Origin: Spirochaetales bacterium
GTDB lineage: Bacteria > Spirochaetota > Spirochaetia > Treponematales > UBA12059
DNA length: 16,771 nt
NCBI GenBank assembly: GCA_004525355.1
Contig: SPCK01000009.1
Span: 1-16,771, forward strand
Reading direction: 5' to 3'
The notes beneath the pieces were generated by a model. It searched no databases. It had not been told where the DNA came from and saw only the letters and a program-made list of their open reading frames with translations. Both the position numbers and the translations under genes were made by a program. Below, piece by piece: positions 3,103-10,242 of this stretch (position 1 is its first letter; every line of letters starts with the position of its first letter).

Positions 3103-3136
3103 CTTATAGGGCTCATCCGTCCATTTCTGCATGGGC

Positions 3137-3158
3137 AGCCCGCCAAGCGGGTTGGAGG
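3137..3158 (+). promoter_or_regulatory. Hairpin next to Shine-Dalgarno GGAGG, deciding a TTG start
   Basis: AGCCCGC (3137-3143), a 3-base loop, GCGGGTT (3147-3153; one G-U pair), then GGAGG at 3154-3158. The GGAGG is five bases before a TTG codon at 3164. The hairpin touches the ribosome-binding site, so it could keep it accessible or modulate it. Confidence 0.5.
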
Positions 3159-3163
3159 CAGGC

Positions 3164-4201
3164 TTGTCTACGCTACGACGATACAAGGAAATTGAAAAAT
3201 CGTTCGCAAAGCGTATTGCATGCGCGTTCAGTAACGTGTTTTCAGTCATAGGCCGCTTTCTTGCGCGTCTGGTTCACGCCGGTAGCCAGAAGCTTACCAT
3301 TATGTTCGTTCCCCATACCGAGCGACGCATTTTCAATCTACAGATAAGTTTCTTCGGGCTTGCCCTCGTGGTCCTCGTATTGGCCGGCGGTATCGGCGCC
3401 CTGGGTTTCGCGGCAGTGGATTATTCGGATGCCATGGGAAAGCTGGTCGGCAAGTCGGATACCCTGCAGGAGACGCAATCCCAGCTGGACGCGATGCGCG
3501 ATAACACCAGCCGACTGGTCAGCGCGGCCCGATCCTTCCAGATAGCCCTCGATGCAACGTTAGCCAAGATCGGCGCGAAGCCAGCCTCGAACAGCGATGC
3601 GAGCCGCGACGGCGACCTAGCCTCATTCTTCGAGCTGTCGGATATTGGTTCAGGTAGTTTGCGCGAAGCCGCCGAGATCGAACAGGTAACGAACTACCTC
3701 GAACGCAGCGTCAATCCTATCCAGGAATTGGGCGACATCATCGCTGCCCAGGGCGCAACGCTTACCGAGATTCCCAACCTGTGGCCCATCAAGGGCGGCA
3801 TCGGTCATATCTCCATGTATTACGGCCAGAACGAGAACCCAATCTACGGTTCGTGGTATATGCATAAAGGTATCGATATCTCCACGTTCCGCTCGGGCGA
3901 CCCCATTCTGGCCACCGCAGACGGTAAGGTCGTCACGGTAGCGTATGACATCGGCCTCGGCAATTACGTGATTTTGGAGCACAAGTATGGCTTTTTGACC
4001 CGTTACGCCCACATGAAGGCTGCCAAGGTTCAAAAAGGCCAGATGGTACGTCAGGGGCAAACGATAGGATATATCGGCAATACCGGCCTATCCACGGGAC
4101 CGCACCTGCATTACGAGATCCATCTCGGCACCGAGACCATCGATCCGCTCCAGTACATCAAGAATCGCTCGAGAGCCTCGATACTGACCCTGTCGCCGTA
4201 G
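3164..4201 (+). CDS. Membrane-anchored M23 peptidase (LytM/peptidoglycan endopeptidase)
   Basis: A zinc endopeptidase that should cut peptide cross-bridges in peptidoglycan, acting in the periplasm and tethered to the inner membrane. Numbering from the upstream ATG at 3131 (356 residues): a basic N-terminal cytoplasmic part, one transmembrane helix at about 73-97, a helical stretch at 98-210 that may form a coiled coil, then the M23 domain at about 225-345. Zinc ligands are H245 and D249 (HKGID) and H327 (HLHYE); H294 in RYAHM is the second catalytic histidine, so it looks active. TTG at 3164 (345 residues) is preferred because GGAGG lies five bases before it, while ATG 3131 has no ribosome-binding site. 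Downstream is bactofilin; M23 peptidase/bactofilin pairs shape cells in other bacteria (for example Helicobacter Csd1/CcmA), so a role in cell form is likely. Confidence 0.9.
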   Translation: MSTLRRYKEIEKSFAKRIACAFSNVFSVIGRFLARLVHAGSQKLTIMFVPHTERRIFNLQISFFGLALVVLVLAGGIGALGFAAVDYSDAMGKLVGKSDTLQETQSQLDAMRDNTSRLVSAARSFQIALDATLAKIGAKPASNSDASRDGDLASFFELSDIGSGSLREAAEIEQVTNYLERSVNPIQELGDIIAAQGATLTEIPNLWPIKGGIGHISMYYGQNENPIYGSWYMHKGIDISTFRSGDPILATADGKVVTVAYDIGLGNYVILEHKYGFLTRYAHMKAAKVQKGQMVRQGQTIGYIGNTGLSTGPHLHYEIHLGTETIDPLQYIKNRSRASILTLSP

Positions 4202-4203
4202 CG

Positions 4204-4232
4204 TTGACGCGCCAGCCGGACCCGGGTAGTAT
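4204..4232 (+). promoter_or_regulatory. Promoter in the 38-base gap, predicted leaderless start for bactofilin
   Basis: TTGACG at 4204-4209, a 17-base spacer, TAGTAT at 4227-4232. It begins two bases after the M23 stop codon and ends seven bases before the bactofilin ATG at 4240, so the first transcribed base would be at or next to the A of ATG. No Shine-Dalgarno sequence is present. Confidence 0.55.
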
Positions 4233-4239
4233 CCAGTAA

Positions 4240-4719
4240 ATGGCCGCTCCAAAAGACTTGCTTGTAAACACTCTCCTCGGTCCGGACAGCTCGTTCAGGG
4301 GAGACCTCGTAGCAGACGGTTTCGTCCGGATCGACGGAGAGCTTCGCGGATCGCTTAGAACGACCGGAAAAGTCGTTATCAGCTCGTCCGCCCGGTGTCA
4401 GGCTTCTCTCACCGCCAGGTCCGCAGTCATAGGCGGCGTCATCGAAGGTGACGTGTGCGTGACCGAGAGGCTGTCGATCCTTGACGGCGGTGTCATAATA
4501 GGCAACGTATTCGCCCCTAGGTTGGACGCGAAAACCGACGTGGTCATTCATGGCGATATCGAAGTATCGGGCACCGTTGAAGGTGCCGAGGAAGCGATGC
4601 TGGCCTTCATGAAGCGGCATGAGAGCGGATTGCTGCCGATCGGATTTGAGCGAAAGTCCAAGCGGGAATCCTCCTATCCGGATAATTCCGGAAAGGCGAC
4701 GTCGTCGTGGCGAAAATAG
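4240..4719 (+). CDS. Bactofilin (DUF583 cytoskeletal protein)
   Basis: A 159-residue bactofilin, which polymerises without nucleotide into filaments lying on the inner membrane and positions peptidoglycan enzymes. Residues about 12-115 show the short hydrophobic/glycine periodicity of a right-handed beta-helix (runs such as GDLVADGFVRIDG and GGVIEGDVCVTERLSILDGG). The N-terminal segment MAAPKDLLVNTLLGP is a possible membrane or partner-binding tail, and the C-terminal tail is basic and probably disordered. The preceding gene is an M23 peptidase and the two probably act together. In Leptospira a bactofilin affects helical cell pitch. The gene ends 13 bases inside the next one. There is no ribosome-binding site; a promoter sits immediately upstream, so it may be made both from the operon message and from a leaderless one. 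Confidence 0.93.
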   Translation: MAAPKDLLVNTLLGPDSSFRGDLVADGFVRIDGELRGSLRTTGKVVISSSARCQASLTARSAVIGGVIEGDVCVTERLSILDGGVIIGNVFAPRLDAKTDVVIHGDIEVSGTVEGAEEAMLAFMKRHESGLLPIGFERKSKRESSYPDNSGKATSSWRK

Positions 4720-5198
4720 ACGGACCCGATCCCCTCGTGACGGGGCTGGTACCCGGCCTGTCCGGACGGAAGCCCGAGAAGAAGAAGGAAACGGCAAAGG
4801 CCGGTTTTTTCAGCTCGCTCCTGAAGCAGGCCGAACGGGCCGACAGTACCCCGGCCGCCGAAGGAGAACCCTTCGTCGAAGCCGAGGTAGCGGAGTTGCT
4901 CGATGCGGTGCACAGTTCGGGCGACGACCTCAAGCACGATGCCAATATGGAGAACATAAAGGCGTACAAGAGGGCCGTCCGGAACTTCATCCATTACGTT
5001 GTAGAACGGGCATACGTGGTCGAGGAGCGCGTGTCCGGAAGAAATGTCCTCAAGCGCAAGAAGTTTACCAGTATCGCGGTAATAGACGAGAAGCTCGAGC
5101 GCCTGGCCGCCGATGTACTTTCCTCGCAGAAAGATCGGTTGGATATACTCAGACGCCTCGATGAGATACACGGCCTTCTGGTGGACCTGCTCCGCTGA
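4707..5198 (+). CDS. YaaR-family protein (DUF327)
   Basis: A 163-residue mainly helical protein resembling Bacillus YaaR (DUF327), whose biochemical role is not known. The start is GTG 4707, overlapping the bactofilin end by 13 bases; a weak purine run GGAAAGG lies ten bases upstream, so translation is probably coupled to bactofilin. The first ~50 residues are lysine- and glycine-rich and low in complexity. The conserved helical part begins near residue 55 and includes the stretch YKRAVRNFIHYVVERAY and a charged C-terminal helix that ends in LLVDLLR. In Bacillus yaaR lies close to yaaT (ricT); here the RicT-like gene follows after 27 bases, which supports the assignment. Here the pair is linked to cell-shape genes instead of the tmk and holB genes found in Firmicutes. 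Confidence 0.8.
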   Translation: MAKIDGPDPLVTGLVPGLSGRKPEKKKETAKAGFFSSLLKQAERADSTPAAEGEPFVEAEVAELLDAVHSSGDDLKHDANMENIKAYKRAVRNFIHYVVERAYVVEERVSGRNVLKRKKFTSIAVIDEKLERLAADVLSSQKDRLDILRRLDEIHGLLVDLLR

Positions 5199-5225
5199 GG
5201 ACCCGGATCTTGAGGAGAACCAATA

Positions 5226-6155
5226 ATGGATGACAACGCATATACGGACATGTCCGATGAAGAATTGCAGCACCTTGAGGATGATCAGCTCGATGTCGGG
5301 GACGATGAATCCGCCGGCAATGACCTTCCCGAGGTCCTGTACCGCCTGAAGGTAGAGCCATATAACGAGACGTACTACGCATCGTTTGACGCTCCCTTGG
5401 AGGCGGGAACCCGAGTAATCGCTCAGACGCGCTACGGCAAGGATCTCTGCATTGTCTTGGGAGCAGTGGGTAGTCCCGGATTCGTTCGGGCTGAGGATAT
5501 CCTCAAGATCGAACGAATGGCCGTCCAGGCAGATCTGGAGCGCCGGATTGTCGATGAAGAGAAGGAGCGGAAGGCTTTCCAGCTGTGCCATGAAAAAATA
5601 CGATCGCACGGTTTGCCCATGAAGCTGGTGTTTGCCCATTACTTGCTTGATGACTCAAAAGTGCTGTTCTTTTTCACGGCCGATTCACGCGTGGACTTCC
5701 GCGACCTGGTCAAGGATCTGGTGGCCATCTTCAAGATGCGTATCGAGCTCAGGCAGATCGGCGTTCGGGACGAGGCTCGGGTTGTAGGCGGGTGTGGTGT
5801 TTGCGGCCGAGTGCTGTGCTGCCATGGCGTGACGGACAAGCTGGTACCTGTTTCAATCAAGATGGCCAAGGATCAGAACCTGTCCCTGAATTCCCTCAAG
5901 ATTTCCGGTCCTTGCGGAAGGCTACTCTGCTGCCTGGCCTATGAATTCGGGTTTTATCGCGAAGCGAGACGCGGCATGCCGAACGAGGGTACCAGAATCC
6001 ATTATGACGGGACTATCCTTCGCGTCATGGAAGTCAACGTGCCGGCCGGCCGCCTTAAGCTTTCCGGGGAGGACGGCCGCTATCTGGAGGTCAAGGCAGA
6101 ACGGTTCTCGATGCAAGAAGGCCACTGGATACTGTTGGAAGAGGATGAGCAGTAA
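5226..6155 (+). CDS. PSP1-domain protein, RicT/YaaT-like
   Basis: A 309-residue cytosolic protein of the PSP1 family. In Bacillus the homologue RicT (YaaT) forms, with RicA and RicF, an Fe-S-containing complex that steers RNase Y. The N-terminal ~35 residues are acidic and probably disordered; the PSP1 domain spans about 36-290. The cysteines are C190, C193, C198, C199 (CGVCGRVLCC) and C230, C235, C236 (CGRLLCC), the cluster expected of a metal or Fe-S ligand set; the spacing of C193, C198, C199, C230 and C235 fits what I remember for Bacillus RicT. A good Shine-Dalgarno sequence GAGGAG (5212-5217) sits eight bases before the ATG. It is the last gene of the operon and is followed by a strong terminator. 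No RicA or RicF gene lies in the window. Confidence 0.88.
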   Translation: MDDNAYTDMSDEELQHLEDDQLDVGDDESAGNDLPEVLYRLKVEPYNETYYASFDAPLEAGTRVIAQTRYGKDLCIVLGAVGSPGFVRAEDILKIERMAVQADLERRIVDEEKERKAFQLCHEKIRSHGLPMKLVFAHYLLDDSKVLFFFTADSRVDFRDLVKDLVAIFKMRIELRQIGVRDEARVVGGCGVCGRVLCCHGVTDKLVPVSIKMAKDQNLSLNSLKISGPCGRLLCCLAYEFGFYREARRGMPNEGTRIHYDGTILRVMEVNVPAGRLKLSGEDGRYLEVKAERFSMQEGHWILLEEDEQ

Positions 6156-6235: not shown

Positions 6236-7261
6236 CTATTCGGTATAGCCCGTGATCTCGATCTCGAAAATAAGATATGAGTCCGGAGGGATGAGGCCGC
6301 CTGCGGCTCCTTTGGAGCCATAGGCATACTCTGGAGGTATTGCCACCAGCCGCTTTTCGCCCTTCTTCATTTCGGAGACGATGATGTCCCATCCTGGGAT
6401 AACCTGGTTGGAACCGACCTCGAATTCGATGGATCCACCGTGCAGGGAGGATTCGTCGAAGACCTGGCCATTCGGGAGCATGCCTTTGTATGCCACGTTG
6501 ACCAGCCAGAAACGGCGAATTGTCGGCCCAGAGCCATCTTTGAGGATTTTTTGCAGCATGCCGTCGGGGCGAGCCTCGAGATCCGGCCACCTGTCGGTAA
6601 TCTGTCTGATCAGAGCTGCCCGCTCCGCGATCTTCCTGTTCTTGATCGCTTCCATGGCCGGGGCGTACAGCGCGTTCCAGGCAGCCTGGTCGGAGCGGAA
6701 GGCCTTGGCTTCGTCGCCTATACGTAAGATACGTATGCTCTTTATGAAATCGCCTTTCTGTATTTCGGTGACGATATCCATGCCTTGGACAACTCTGCCG
6801 AATACCGTATATCGACCATCCAGGTAGGGAATGGTATCCAGCGTGATGTAAAATTGGCTGCCGTTCGTATCCGGTGCGTAGCTGGCCATACCAAGTACTC
6901 CCGGTGCGTCATGGCGGAGGTCGGGGTGTATCTCGTTGGGAAAAATGTAGCCCGCATCGCCCGTGCCGTCTCCCATGGGATCGCCGCCCTGGATGACGAA
7001 GCCCTTTTCCACGCGGTGAAAAGTAAGTCCGTCGTAGAAATGTCTTCCGGCTGTCGCATCAAGGGTCCCTTCCGCCAATCCCACGAAATTGGCCACCGTC
7101 AGACGCGCCTTGTCGAAATCGAGATGGGCGATTACGGTTCCCCTTACGGTTTCTATGCGGGCATACAGGCCGTCGGGCAGCTTGGGCTGGCCGGAGCAGG
7201 AAATGGTCAGTACAGAGAGCGCGGTTACAAGGAACGCGCCGGCCTTCAATGCGGATTTCAT
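6236..7261 (-). CDS. Dual-family peptidyl-prolyl isomerase lipoprotein (cyclophilin-FKBP fusion)
   Basis: A 341-residue secreted folding catalyst with two unrelated prolyl isomerase domains in one chain. A lipoprotein signal ends in LTISC with lipidated C22 (relaxed lipobox). The cyclophilin domain spans about 33-182: catalytic R83 in FHRVEKGF, F88, Q91 and GSQFY at 134-138 are kept. The position matching human CypA W121 is Y146 and H126 is Y151, as in many bacterial cyclophilins with weak cyclosporin binding. After a charged helical linker (about 185-235) comes an FKBP domain (about 245-341) with F268, D269, F280, V287, I288, W291, Y314 and F332, a full FKBP pocket. Cyclophilin-first fusions (CFBP) have been described in Treponema denticola and Flavobacterium. 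The start is supported by GGAGGG five bases upstream. It is a monocistronic gene ending at a bidirectional terminator. Confidence 0.93.
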   Translation of the reverse strand: MKSALKAGAFLVTALSVLTISCSGQPKLPDGLYARIETVRGTVIAHLDFDKARLTVANFVGLAEGTLDATAGRHFYDGLTFHRVEKGFVIQGGDPMGDGTGDAGYIFPNEIHPDLRHDAPGVLGMASYAPDTNGSQFYITLDTIPYLDGRYTVFGRVVQGMDIVTEIQKGDFIKSIRILRIGDEAKAFRSDQAAWNALYAPAMEAIKNRKIAERAALIRQITDRWPDLEARPDGMLQKILKDGSGPTIRRFWLVNVAYKGMLPNGQVFDESSLHGGSIEFEVGSNQVIPGWDIIVSEMKKGEKRLVAIPPEYAYGSKGAAGGLIPPDSYLIFEIEITGYTE

Positions 7262-7451: not shown

Positions 7452-7473
7452 GTGAATTGTCTGGAGGCGCGTG

Positions 7474-7965
7474 ATGGGTATGGATGAGTACAGGCGACCT
7501 AGTTGGGACGAGTATTTCATGGAAGTGTGCGACGCCATCGCAAAGCGCGCCACCTGCGACCGGGGACGGTCCGGCTGCGTCATAGCGAGGGACCATCAGG
7601 TATTGGCGACCGGTTACGTTGGTGCTCCGGCAGGCCTTCCTCATTGCGACGAGGTCGGGCATCAGCTCAAACAGATGGTGCATGAGGACGGTAGCGCCAC
7701 CAAGCATTGCGTGCGCACCGTTCACGCCGAGCAGAACGCGATCTGCCAGGCAGCGCGCCGAGGTACCGCGATCGAGGGAGCGACGCTTTATTGCCGCATG
7801 ACGCCGTGCCGGACATGCGCGATGATGATAATCAATTGCGGTGTGGTCAGGGTGATATGCCAGAAGAAATACCATGACGGAGCCGAGAGCGAGGATATGT
7901 TCAAGCGCGCGGGAGTGACCGTGGAATACGTCGATGACGTCGTGGAGCGTTATGATAACCAGTGA
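7474..7965 (+). CDS. Deoxycytidylate (dCMP) deaminase
   Basis: A 163-residue cytosolic zinc enzyme converting dCMP to dUMP, feeding thymidylate synthesis. The catalytic motif is H84-A85-E86 (VHAEQNAI), with E86 as the proton shuttle, and P111-C112-x-x-C115 supplies the other two zinc ligands. The C28/C35/H57/C58 region before it fits the second, structural zinc site seen in phage T4 and ComEB-type dCMP deaminases. The length is normal. Three starts are possible: GTG 7471, ATG 7474 and ATG 7480. GGAGG at 7463-7467 gives six bases to ATG 7474, the best spacing. It heads a plus-strand group with the YmdB-like and RseC-like genes; the 68-base gap behind it carries a short hairpin (CCCGTC/GACGGG, 7973-7990). 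Confidence 0.92.
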   Translation: MGMDEYRRPSWDEYFMEVCDAIAKRATCDRGRSGCVIARDHQVLATGYVGAPAGLPHCDEVGHQLKQMVHEDGSATKHCVRTVHAEQNAICQAARRGTAIEGATLYCRMTPCRTCAMMIINCGVVRVICQKKYHDGAESEDMFKRAGVTVEYVDDVVERYDNQ

Positions 7966-8033: not shown

Positions 8034-8858
8034 GTGAGCGTTCGAATTTTGTACATCGGCGAAATCGTTGGCCGGGTTGGCGTCTTTGCCGTAAAGAAAA
8101 CATTACCCAGCCTCAGGGATAGATTCAATCCCGATTTCATCATTGCCAACGCCGCCGGGGCCACGGGCGGTTCCGGTATCGGCAAGACCCACTCCATATA
8201 CCTGCGAAAATTGGGCATCGACGTGATTACGACGGGCGAGTCGGCCTTCTTCAAGAAGGATATCGTAGAGGCCTTCCCGGTCTCGCCATGGCTGCTCAGG
8301 CCATCAAACCACCCACCGGGCGTTCCCGGTCGCGGGCACAGGATATACCATTCGCGCGTGGGCGATGTCGCCGTGATCCAGTTGCTTGGCCAGGCTGGGT
8401 TCGGGAGGATTCACCTGGGCAACCCCTTTCACGCGCTGGACTCGCTGCTGGAGACCGTCGGCACGAATGTTCCCGTTGTTTTCGAGTTCAGGGCCGCTAC
8501 TACAGCCGAGAAGAACGCTATGTTCCGTCATACGGACGGCAGGGTATCGGCCTTGATAGGGTCCTATGCCCGCAGCCTTACCTCGGATGCCCGGGTCAGT
8601 GCTTCGGGAACGGCGTTCATTACCGATGCCGGCATGACGGGTAGTACCCTTTCGGTCTGCGGCATGGACGCACAGATGAAGATTCGCGAGTTCATGAGTG
8701 GCATCCCCGTGTGGGCCAAGGATGCGACCGCGTTGCCCGAGGTTCAGGGTTGCTCGATAGAAATCGGAGATGATGGCAAGGCGCGTTCAATCGAGGCCTT
8801 TCGAGTAGCGTGCAAGGAGGAGTTCCATGACCGAACGGGGAATAGTGACCAAGCTTGA
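8034..8858 (+). CDS. YmdB-family (TIGR00282-like) protein with lost metal site, probable pseudo-phosphodiesterase
   Basis: A 274-residue protein clearly of the YmdB/DR1281 metallophosphoesterase family by its frame motifs: ILYIGEIVGR (5-14), LLRPSN-PPG-PGRG (88-101), DGRVSA (168-173) and GTAFITDAGMTG (192-203). In active members the two metals are held by D8, E39, N40, N67, H150, H175 and H177, next to catalytic H68. Here the aligned residues are E10, A41, G42, E69, R153, Y178 and R180, with S70 for the histidine, so catalysis is very unlikely. The reading frame is clean and the surrounding motifs are kept, which argues for a non-enzymatic role (binding or regulation), not decay. Its C-terminal tail is longer than usual and overlaps the next gene by 32 bases. 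The start is GTG 8034, chosen because the family motif begins directly after it. Confidence 0.82.
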   Translation: MSVRILYIGEIVGRVGVFAVKKTLPSLRDRFNPDFIIANAAGATGGSGIGKTHSIYLRKLGIDVITTGESAFFKKDIVEAFPVSPWLLRPSNHPPGVPGRGHRIYHSRVGDVAVIQLLGQAGFGRIHLGNPFHALDSLLETVGTNVPVVFEFRAATTAEKNAMFRHTDGRVSALIGSYARSLTSDARVSASGTAFITDAGMTGSTLSVCGMDAQMKIREFMSGIPVWAKDATALPEVQGCSIEIGDDGKARSIEAFRVACKEEFHDRTGNSDQA

Positions 8859-9243
8859 AGATAGTGTCGCGACTGTAGGCATAACGATGGGAGAAGGTTG
8901 TGCGAATTGCAATTCGCATGGCGATTGCGCCATGGTAGGCGCGACGATACAAGCGGATCTGCCAGAAAATATCGGCGTAAAGGTGGGAGATCAGGTATCG
9001 ATCGAGCTGCCAAGCGGCATACAGGCTGCGGCGCTGGCTTGGCTCATCATCCTGCCGTTGTCATTGTTCTTTGCCGGATACGCGGGAGGAACAGTACTTT
9101 CGGCCGGGCGCGGAGAAGGTTTGTCCGCCCTGCTTGGGATACTCGGGATTGCCATGGGCTTGGTAGCAGCGGTCCTCGCATCCAGGCGCGGCCGCCTGGG
9201 GAGGCGGCCCAAGATCGTAGCGGTCGATCAATTCCCCGGCTGA
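8827..9243 (+). CDS. RseC/MucC family membrane protein
   Basis: A 138-residue inner-membrane protein of the SoxR-reducing/RseC family. The N-terminal cytosolic domain (1-65) begins with the family's RGIVTKLEDSVATV strand and carries C25, C28 and C34 (CANCNSHGDC), a possible metal or Fe-S site. Two transmembrane helices follow at about 66-90 and 97-116, then a short basic tail. In Proteobacteria RseC is tied to SoxR reduction and sigma-E control; in anaerobes such proteins often accompany electron-transfer (Rnf) genes, which are not present here. The Shine-Dalgarno AAGGAGGAG (8814-8822) is near perfect and lies inside the end of the YmdB-like gene, so the two overlap by 32 bases. Near its 3' end GGCCGCC/GGCGGCC (9190-9209) can form a hairpin inside the coding region. 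Confidence 0.85.
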   Translation: MTERGIVTKLEDSVATVGITMGEGCANCNSHGDCAMVGATIQADLPENIGVKVGDQVSIELPSGIQAAALAWLIILPLSLFFAGYAGGTVLSAGRGEGLSALLGILGIAMGLVAAVLASRRGRLGRRPKIVAVDQFPG

Positions 9244-9960: not shown

Positions 9961-10242
9961 ATGGATACGAGAAACGGATTAGTGAATTTTTCGCTTTTTG
10001 TTTTTATTTTTGTTTTCGCCTTTGTCTTTTCGGTCGACGCGCTGGGTCAGCCTAATACCCTCTACGGTATTCTTGCGCTTCTGGGCTTTTTTGTGTGCCT
10101 TGTCGGCTCGCTCTTCAACGGCGTGATGGCCAATAAGGGCGGCGAGGCCATGGGCGTCTGGTTTTTCACCTACGCCGTGGTAGTCGGCATCATTACCGTA
10201 TGGTACCTTACCCGCTGCGGCACCGCCTTCGGCTGGTGGTAA
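9961..10242 (+). CDS. Small membrane protein, three helices, unknown function
   Basis: I do not recognise this 93-residue protein. It has three predicted transmembrane segments at about 8-26, 34-54 and 64-84. The first is strikingly rich in phenylalanine and valine (FSLFVFIFVFAFVF, 10-23) and is encoded by a T-rich stretch unlike the GC-rich surroundings. The loops hold NGVMANKGGEA between helices two and three, and the protein ends in GWW. The ATG has AAGGAG eight bases upstream and a good promoter, so the gene is expressed by itself. It is followed by a GC-rich hairpin. It may be a small stress or envelope protein; nothing in the sequence decides this. Confidence 0.75.
   Translation: MDTRNGLVNFSLFVFIFVFAFVFSVDALGQPNTLYGILALLGFFVCLVGSLFNGVMANKGGEAMGVWFFTYAVVVGIITVWYLTRCGTAFGWW

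Follow-up and report, generated by a model that had tools for sequence, protein, structure and literature searches.

The gene at positions 8,034 to 8,858 of the window (the whole stretch of 16,771 nucleotides that was analysed) encodes a YmdB-family protein in which the metal site of the active enzymes has been replaced throughout. The protein belongs to a single clade of the family, here called type B, in which the replacements follow a largely conserved pattern; the family members with an intact site are called type A, and one of them is encoded in the same genome. On balance, we favour the reading that type B is a pseudo-phosphodiesterase: an old second YmdB lineage, the relined pocket of which may bind a ligand or partner and thereby regulate or assist the type-A pathway.

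Identity and fold of the protein

The 8034-8858 protein scored 236.7 bits with the Pfam YmdB family (PF13277), for which the gathering cut-off is 27. The match covered residues 6-255 of the protein and positions 1-252 of the 253 in the profile. The TIGR00282 score was 173.9 bits, which is under the NCBIfam cut-off of 254.15; this cut-off by itself cannot split the two types, since the intact type-A copy also reached just 243.9-245.5 bits. The AlphaFold2 model of the protein had a mean pLDDT of 94.3 and a pTM of 0.92. The Foldseek search with this model identified B. subtilis YmdB (4b2o) as the top solved structure (TM 0.90/0.93, 35% identity), and the four top solved structures were the same four YmdB-family structures that the sequence search gave. 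Judged by the predicted structure, the protein is a member of the calcineurin-like YmdB fold. In public records, type-B proteins are named TIGR00282/YmdB family metallophosphoesterase or 2',3'-cyclic-nucleotide 2'-phosphodiesterase. Calling them metallophosphoesterases deserves a warning, given that the site is missing from their sequences. The features of the region are listed in Table 1.

Table 1. Positions of the type-B gene, its altered sites, and its flanking genes in the window.
Feature	Positions	Strand	Remarks
dCMP/cytidine-deaminase family gene	7471..7965	+	PF00383 2.3e-24; 68 bases upstream of the paralogue
Type-B YmdB paralogue	8034..8858	+	GTG start, 274 aa, open frame; PF13277 and AF2 model
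E10 (YmdB D8, metal ligand)	8061..8063	+	Glu in 86/87 type-B loci
A41 G42 (YmdB E39 N40, ligands)	8154..8159	+	A41 rare; type B usually D/N/E
E69 S70 (YmdB N67, ligand; H68, catalytic)	8238..8243	+	From the alignments
F73 (YmdB D71, second dyad residue)	8250..8252	+	Dyad according to excerpts of PMC10406935
F123-H127, type-B loop F-x-R-x-H (F123, R125, H127)	8400..8414	+	F in 72, R in 71, H in 72 of 87
R153 (YmdB H150, ligand)	8490..8492	+	Arg in own subclade; His in 68/87 type-B loci
Y178 and R180 (YmdB H175 and H177, ligands)	8565..8573	+	K/R at 177 in 86/87 type-B loci
RseC/MucC-type membrane protein gene	8827..9243	+	PF04246 8.7e-20; 32-base overlap with the end of the paralogue

Loss of the metal site

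Alignment to 4b2o and the family alignment showed that the YmdB residues D8, E39, N40, N67, H150, H175, and H177 are replaced by E10, A41, G42, E69, R153, Y178, and R180, respectively, so that 0/7 metal ligands are kept. The catalytic H68 is replaced by S70. The catalytic dyad H68/D71 corresponds to S70/F73, with neither residue kept; F73 is the less telling of the two, because most type-A sequences have E at position 71 (E in 40/48, D in 2/48). The list of ligands, the catalytic role of H68 and D71, and the binding of the second Fe(II) by D8 and H177 were taken from excerpts of PMC10406935. Alanine at the position of A41 was found in 1/87 type-B loci and in two of the 120 best-listed protein matches (of 713), one of which is the 8034-8858 protein itself.

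The phmmer alignment to 4b2o has no gaps across the metal-site motifs. Misalignment is unlikely, because the motifs are ungapped, the model is confident, and YmdB is the best solved match. A shifted yet complete metal site was also considered and looks unlikely from the alignment and the predicted fold. E10 and E69 could in principle hold a metal weakly. An earlier note on this DNA, made from the letters alone, had assigned the protein to the YmdB family with an intact frame, and had listed replacements at all seven ligand positions and at the catalytic His. The Pfam match, the AF2 fold match to 4b2o, the open frame of 274 aa, and the two alignments confirmed this reading, with the residues exactly as the note gave them; the structure model that it had proposed confirmed the YmdB fold.

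Site patterns and spread of the type-B clade

The sites were compared as strings of the residues at YmdB positions 8, 39, 40, 67, 68, 150, 175, and 177, which read DENNHHHH when intact. Among 58 relatives (own genome included), 49 had a match (42 both types, 7 one type), and 9 had none. The type-A locus L078, which lies in two frames, is in this genome count and out of the site tables. DENNHHHH was found in 43/43 type-A versus 0/47 type-B sequences of the relatives. The set was enlarged by 47 loci across the phylum (42 type B, 5 type A), and the final site table holds 87 type-B loci (the incomplete L079 and L081 were left out) and 48 type-A loci. All eight residues are intact in 48/48 type-A loci.

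The replacement across the type-B clade is patterned and largely conserved, with E at 8, E/D at 67, and K/R at 177. Among the 87 type-B loci, position 8 is E in 86 and Q in 1, and never D; position 67 is E in 57, D in 28, and another residue in 2; position 177 is R in 51, K in 35, and G in 1. Position 39 carries D (48), N (23), E (14), A (1), or G (1), and position 40 carries G (59), S (21), or other residues (7, one of them N). Position 150 is H in 68, R in 9, and other in 10; position 175 is H in 50, G in 24, Y in 10, and other in 3. Thirteen residue types occur at position 68, with H in one locus; this sole type-B locus with His at 68 is L056 (G006), and its string is EDSEHHHK. Of the 333 loci found in named genomes, the best 80 gave E at position 8 in 79 and D in 1, K/R177 in 80, H150 in 72, and H175 in 56; many of them come from genomes already in other sets, and the sets overlap. 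One-off degeneration is ruled out by the clade-wide pattern.

Phylogenetic trees were reconstructed with the eight site columns removed. Type B forms a single clade (bootstrap 100, SH-aLRT 99) on a tree of 43 chosen rows, which leaves out long-branched rows such as L124-L126 and L056; on the 87-row tree with long-branched rows included, the clade has an SH-aLRT of 99. B. subtilis YmdB groups with type A, and the tree is unrooted. Of 148 genomes sampled from the class, 124 had at least two TIGR00282 matches, 15 had one, and 9 had none, as counted by eye on match numbers, not on type. Most of the Spirochaetia sampled carry both types, and type B accompanies the enzyme through much of the class, including genomes of ~1 Mb. 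Eight loci from families outside the class and inside the phylum comprised three of type B (L154, L158, and L161) and five of type A. One of the best 80 (of 333) titled loci is labelled Cloacimonadota (L235). The putative Borrelia-type loci L124-L126 come from 0.9-1.8 Mb genomes with two YmdB-family genes, and their type-B site is ENFENDGR; the type-B gene of L124 has a signal peptidase II gene and a gene of the EPSP-synthase family in its vicinity. In genus g19 (L151; G324, G377, G390, and G522), the type-B matches are split into at least two stretches near profile position 190, which suggests an insertion at this position.

Probable stepwise loss of the ligands

An acid at 39, an acid at 67, His150, and His175 are all kept in 48/87 type-B loci. 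The same set was found in 52/80 of the named-genome loci (best 80 of 333) and in 76/120 of the best-listed protein matches (of 713); these sets overlap. A His-keeping example is the type-B protein of Breznakiella homolactica (L226), with the string EDGECHHR. According to excerpts of PMC10406935, the same four positions carry the single metal of MslH. The 8034-8858 protein has A, E, R, and Y at 39, 67, 150, and 175, and so lacks a single-metal ligand set of the MslH kind. The four-ligand set is also missing from the putative Borrelia-type loci, the putative Treponema-type loci (ENSDLSGR), and the own subclade (mostly ENGEARYR). Neither His (150, 175) is present in 19/87 type-B loci. On the 87-row tree, His150 requires at least 6 changes, His175 at least 13, and the acid at position 39 at least 9. 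Since 48/87 loci retain the single-metal set, the loss looks stepwise, and the own subclade counts among those that have completed it.

The losses at different positions go together. R150 occurs in 41 of the 120 best-listed protein matches (of 713), and D39 was found in 0/41 of these versus 77/79 of those with H150. Similarly, among the 87 type-B loci, an acid at 39 is present in 61/68 with His150 versus 1/19 without it. Tree-based independent-pair tests of coupled ligand loss pointed in the expected direction, with too few pairs for significance. R150/Y175 is common to 31 of the 120 best-listed protein matches (of 713), with 73% mean pairwise identity. These lineages offer a natural record of how a two-metal site is taken apart, from two metals through plausibly one to none, and Arg would now occupy the vacated positions.

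Selection and the conserved pocket

Between close relatives, type-B genes show purifying selection. The dN/dS input comprised 33/47 type-B and 27/43 type-A sequences, with 16 pairs per type listed. Among the pairs listed, dN/dS was 0.036-0.157 in the 11 type-B pairs with at least 84% identity and 0.036-0.161 in the 7 type-A pairs with at least 86% identity. Selection was measured on close type-B pairs, the 8034-8858 gene itself having no close enough relative; pairs of its own subclade gave 0.098 (L067/L072) and 0.157 (L069/L072). The pairs of 61% identity or less (among the pairs listed) gave 0.42-0.49 in type B and 0.47-0.68 in type A, values that we set aside as unreliable, since synonymous sites are saturated at this distance.

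The residues conserved specifically in type B include K21, T44, H53, K59, F123, R125, H127, N130, A158, and R201. H127 sits in an insert that is missing from 48/48 type-A loci. Position 201 is R in 81/87 type-B loci and M in the 8034-8858 protein and L055 (2/87), a departure at a type-B-conserved position. Lost catalytic residues, a kept fold, and purifying selection (on the close type-B pairs), which define a pseudoenzyme in the loose sense, were all found. The earlier note had proposed a pseudoenzyme because of loss at every site, and had suggested an alignment with spirochaete homologues and a check for relaxed selection. No relaxed selection was found in the close type-B pairs, which is consistent with that proposal. 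However, the alignment showed replacements recurring across the type-B clade; the change is a clade-wide patterned replacement, not an isolated loss.

Genomic context and co-retention

The TIGR00282 search of the own assembly identified two genes. The second one (L001, contig C479) is type A, keeps all seven ligands and H68, and shares ~32% identity with the 8034-8858 protein. With an intact YmdB in the genome, the ancestral activity is therefore probably still in the cell. The L001 gene lies behind an RNase Y gene. RNase Y was upstream in 6/7 of the type-A loci tested (of 48), and the seventh, from a putative Treponema-type genome, has a TatD-type gene in its place. The 8034-8858 gene has no RNase Y neighbour and is flanked by the deaminase and rseC genes. 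By eye, ten genomes of family f3 have type B within ~5-8 kb of rny, on one contig and in the same orientation. A linkage of type B to RNase Y was not used as evidence, as cheR/cheB, lpt-type, and ABC-transporter genes intervene at the two loci examined with Pfam, and a D-Ala-D-Ala ligase gene too at one of them.

The deaminase gene is near type B in 31/47 of the relatives' loci, and several others have a TPR-protein gene instead. An RseC-type frame lies directly downstream, mostly overlapping, in 67/89 type-B versus 0/48 type-A loci; the profile was made from the frames beside type B at 36 of these loci, for which the count is not independent, and the type-A flanks searched were 1-3 kb. The 67 loci consist of 63 by the cut of the script and L043, L051, L061, and L128, which are strong matches with a stop-to-stop frame starting further upstream. 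Pfam analysis of 8 downstream frames elsewhere identified RseC in 5, no family in 2, and an EPSP-synthase-like protein in 1 (putative Borrelia-type). The genomic linkage is between type B and RseC, not between type B and type A, which speaks against the favoured tie to the type-A pathway. The neighbouring RseC has the Cys motif C25-x2-C28-x5-C34. In E. coli, RseC spans the membrane with two helices and carries a CX5CX2CX5C motif on its cytoplasmic side (PMC11729352, excerpts). RseC as a general partner is weakened by RseC-type genes in 7/9 f3 relatives without A and B, and by the lack of any RseC-type match in 7/47 type-B-bearing relatives.

Other genes of the window were also noted. The small frame at 9961-10242 (+) ends in FGWW and is membrane-protein-like by eye; its homologues (56-76% identity) lie shortly downstream of type B at 15 other loci. 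At 6236-7261 (-), cyclophilin and FKBP domains are fused in a single protein (PF00160, PF00254). A row of M23 peptidase, bactofilin, DUF327, and RicT-type genes occupies 3131-6155 (+), and RicT is upstream of type B in 12/47 loci. In B. subtilis, RicT works together with RNase Y.

In f3, A and B are nearly always kept or missing together. Of the 245 f3 genomes, 38 have A and B, 2 have B alone (G501 and G518), none has A alone, and 205 have neither; the types were told apart by bit score, 38 of the 40 genomes with a match having two or more. RNase Y was matched in 243 of the same 245 genomes, so the absences of A and B are not from assembly gaps. Many of the absences are within one genus (g22), while genus g19 is split; two or more loss events are therefore likely. 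The co-absence leans heavily on g22 and reflects few independent events.

Possible function of type B

The favoured pseudo-phosphodiesterase reading may be outlined as follows. In the type-B ancestor, a Glu-Lys/Arg pair (E10-R180 here) would have taken over from the D8/H177-bound metal, and the other metal site (39, 67, 150, and 175) would have stayed possible. In the own subclade, the second site would have been replaced too (E69-R153, Y178, and N/A at 39). These Glu-Arg contacts are deduced from the matching positions of the alignment. The Arg side chains would occupy the places of the two metal ions; with Arg in both places, the protein probably performs no phosphodiester hydrolysis by the YmdB mechanism. 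The pocket residues conserved in type B (E10, H53, K59, R125, H127, and R180) would most likely bind either an anionic ligand, for example a nucleotide or the end of an RNA, or another protein. A candidate partner is the RseC-like membrane protein of the neighbouring gene. From the sequences, a binding or partner role appears likely, and we infer that type B acts as a partner in the type-A pathway. Unlikely in our estimate, as a more specific proposal, is an 'arginine-for-metal' receptor, in which E10-R180 and E69-R153 would hold a phosphate ligand uncut. This ligand would be related to the type-A substrate or product, and in Spirochaetia the A enzyme and the B sensor would make up a two-part system for signalling or RNA ends, with its output given by A itself or by the RseC-type protein as a membrane iron-sulphur protein.

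Type B might instead be a re-tooled enzyme acting on a different substrate, with a single metal or with metal-free acid-base chemistry (metal-free in the own subclade). The acid/acid/His/His set of many type-B loci and the type-B-conserved H53, K59, R125, and H127 are in favour of this possibility, as is MslH, which combines a YmdB-like fold with a single metal and catalyses a new reaction (PMC10406935, excerpts). However, the own, Treponema-type, and Borrelia-type lineages keep the gene without the four-ligand set, both His are gone from 19/87 loci, and position 68 tolerates 13 residue types in 87; we regard a re-tooled enzyme as doubtful. Quite improbable, in our view, is that type B serves as a dedicated cytosolic scaffold for the neighbouring RseC-type membrane protein, loosely in the manner of Vps29 and with no functional tie to type A. 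The RseC-type frame following B and never A (with the profile drawn from 36 of these loci), PF04246 in the window and in 5/8 downstream frames tested elsewhere, and the cytoplasmic Cys motif of E. coli RseC (PMC11729352, excerpts) would fit such a scaffold; Vps29 binds a 12-residue 4-Cys/Zn microdomain, according to excerpts of PMC7539009. On the other hand, RseC occurs without A and B and B occurs without RseC, f3 genomes nearly always hold both A and B or neither, and the Vps29 parallel is loose (TM 0.28, rmsd 18.7), with Vps29 still binding divalent metal (PMC7539009, excerpts).

Several ligands have changed together and the source assembly is fragmented (506 contigs), as might be expected of a decaying copy or of an assembly or alignment artefact. 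This explanation is very hard to credit given the low dN/dS in close type-B pairs, R150/Y175 shared by 31 of the 120 best-listed protein matches (of 713), and the same neighbours in the relatives. The pseudo-phosphodiesterase reading may also be of practical use: a conserved sister seemingly unable to cut, with its pocket conserved, could help to fish for the ligand.

Comparison with known systems

In an open-licence literature library, no title or opening of an abstract pointed to a non-catalytic YmdB paralogue. Type B is a pseudoenzyme-like lineage inside the known YmdB family, and the negative literature search is no proof of absence.

The eukaryotic retromer protein Vps29 uses a phosphoesterase fold as a protein-interaction scaffold, according to the title of a 2005 paper cited in PMC7539009; against the model, it was found at Foldseek rank 43 (E 1.6e-03), a poor fold match. 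The lasso-peptide epimerase MslH has a YmdB-like fold that has lost the second metal; it retains one Ca(II), bound by the equivalents of E39/N67/H150/H175, together with a His/Asp dyad, whereas the 8034-8858 protein keeps neither (PMC10406935, excerpts). The own-genome type-A protein belongs to the same fold family, and differs by the intact ligands and H68 and by the RNase Y neighbour. B. subtilis YmdB (4B2O) shares the same full-length fold and the family frame motifs with the 8034-8858 protein, which differs from it by the type-B loop F-x-R-x-H, the complete replacement of the metal ligands, and the loss of H68 and D71.
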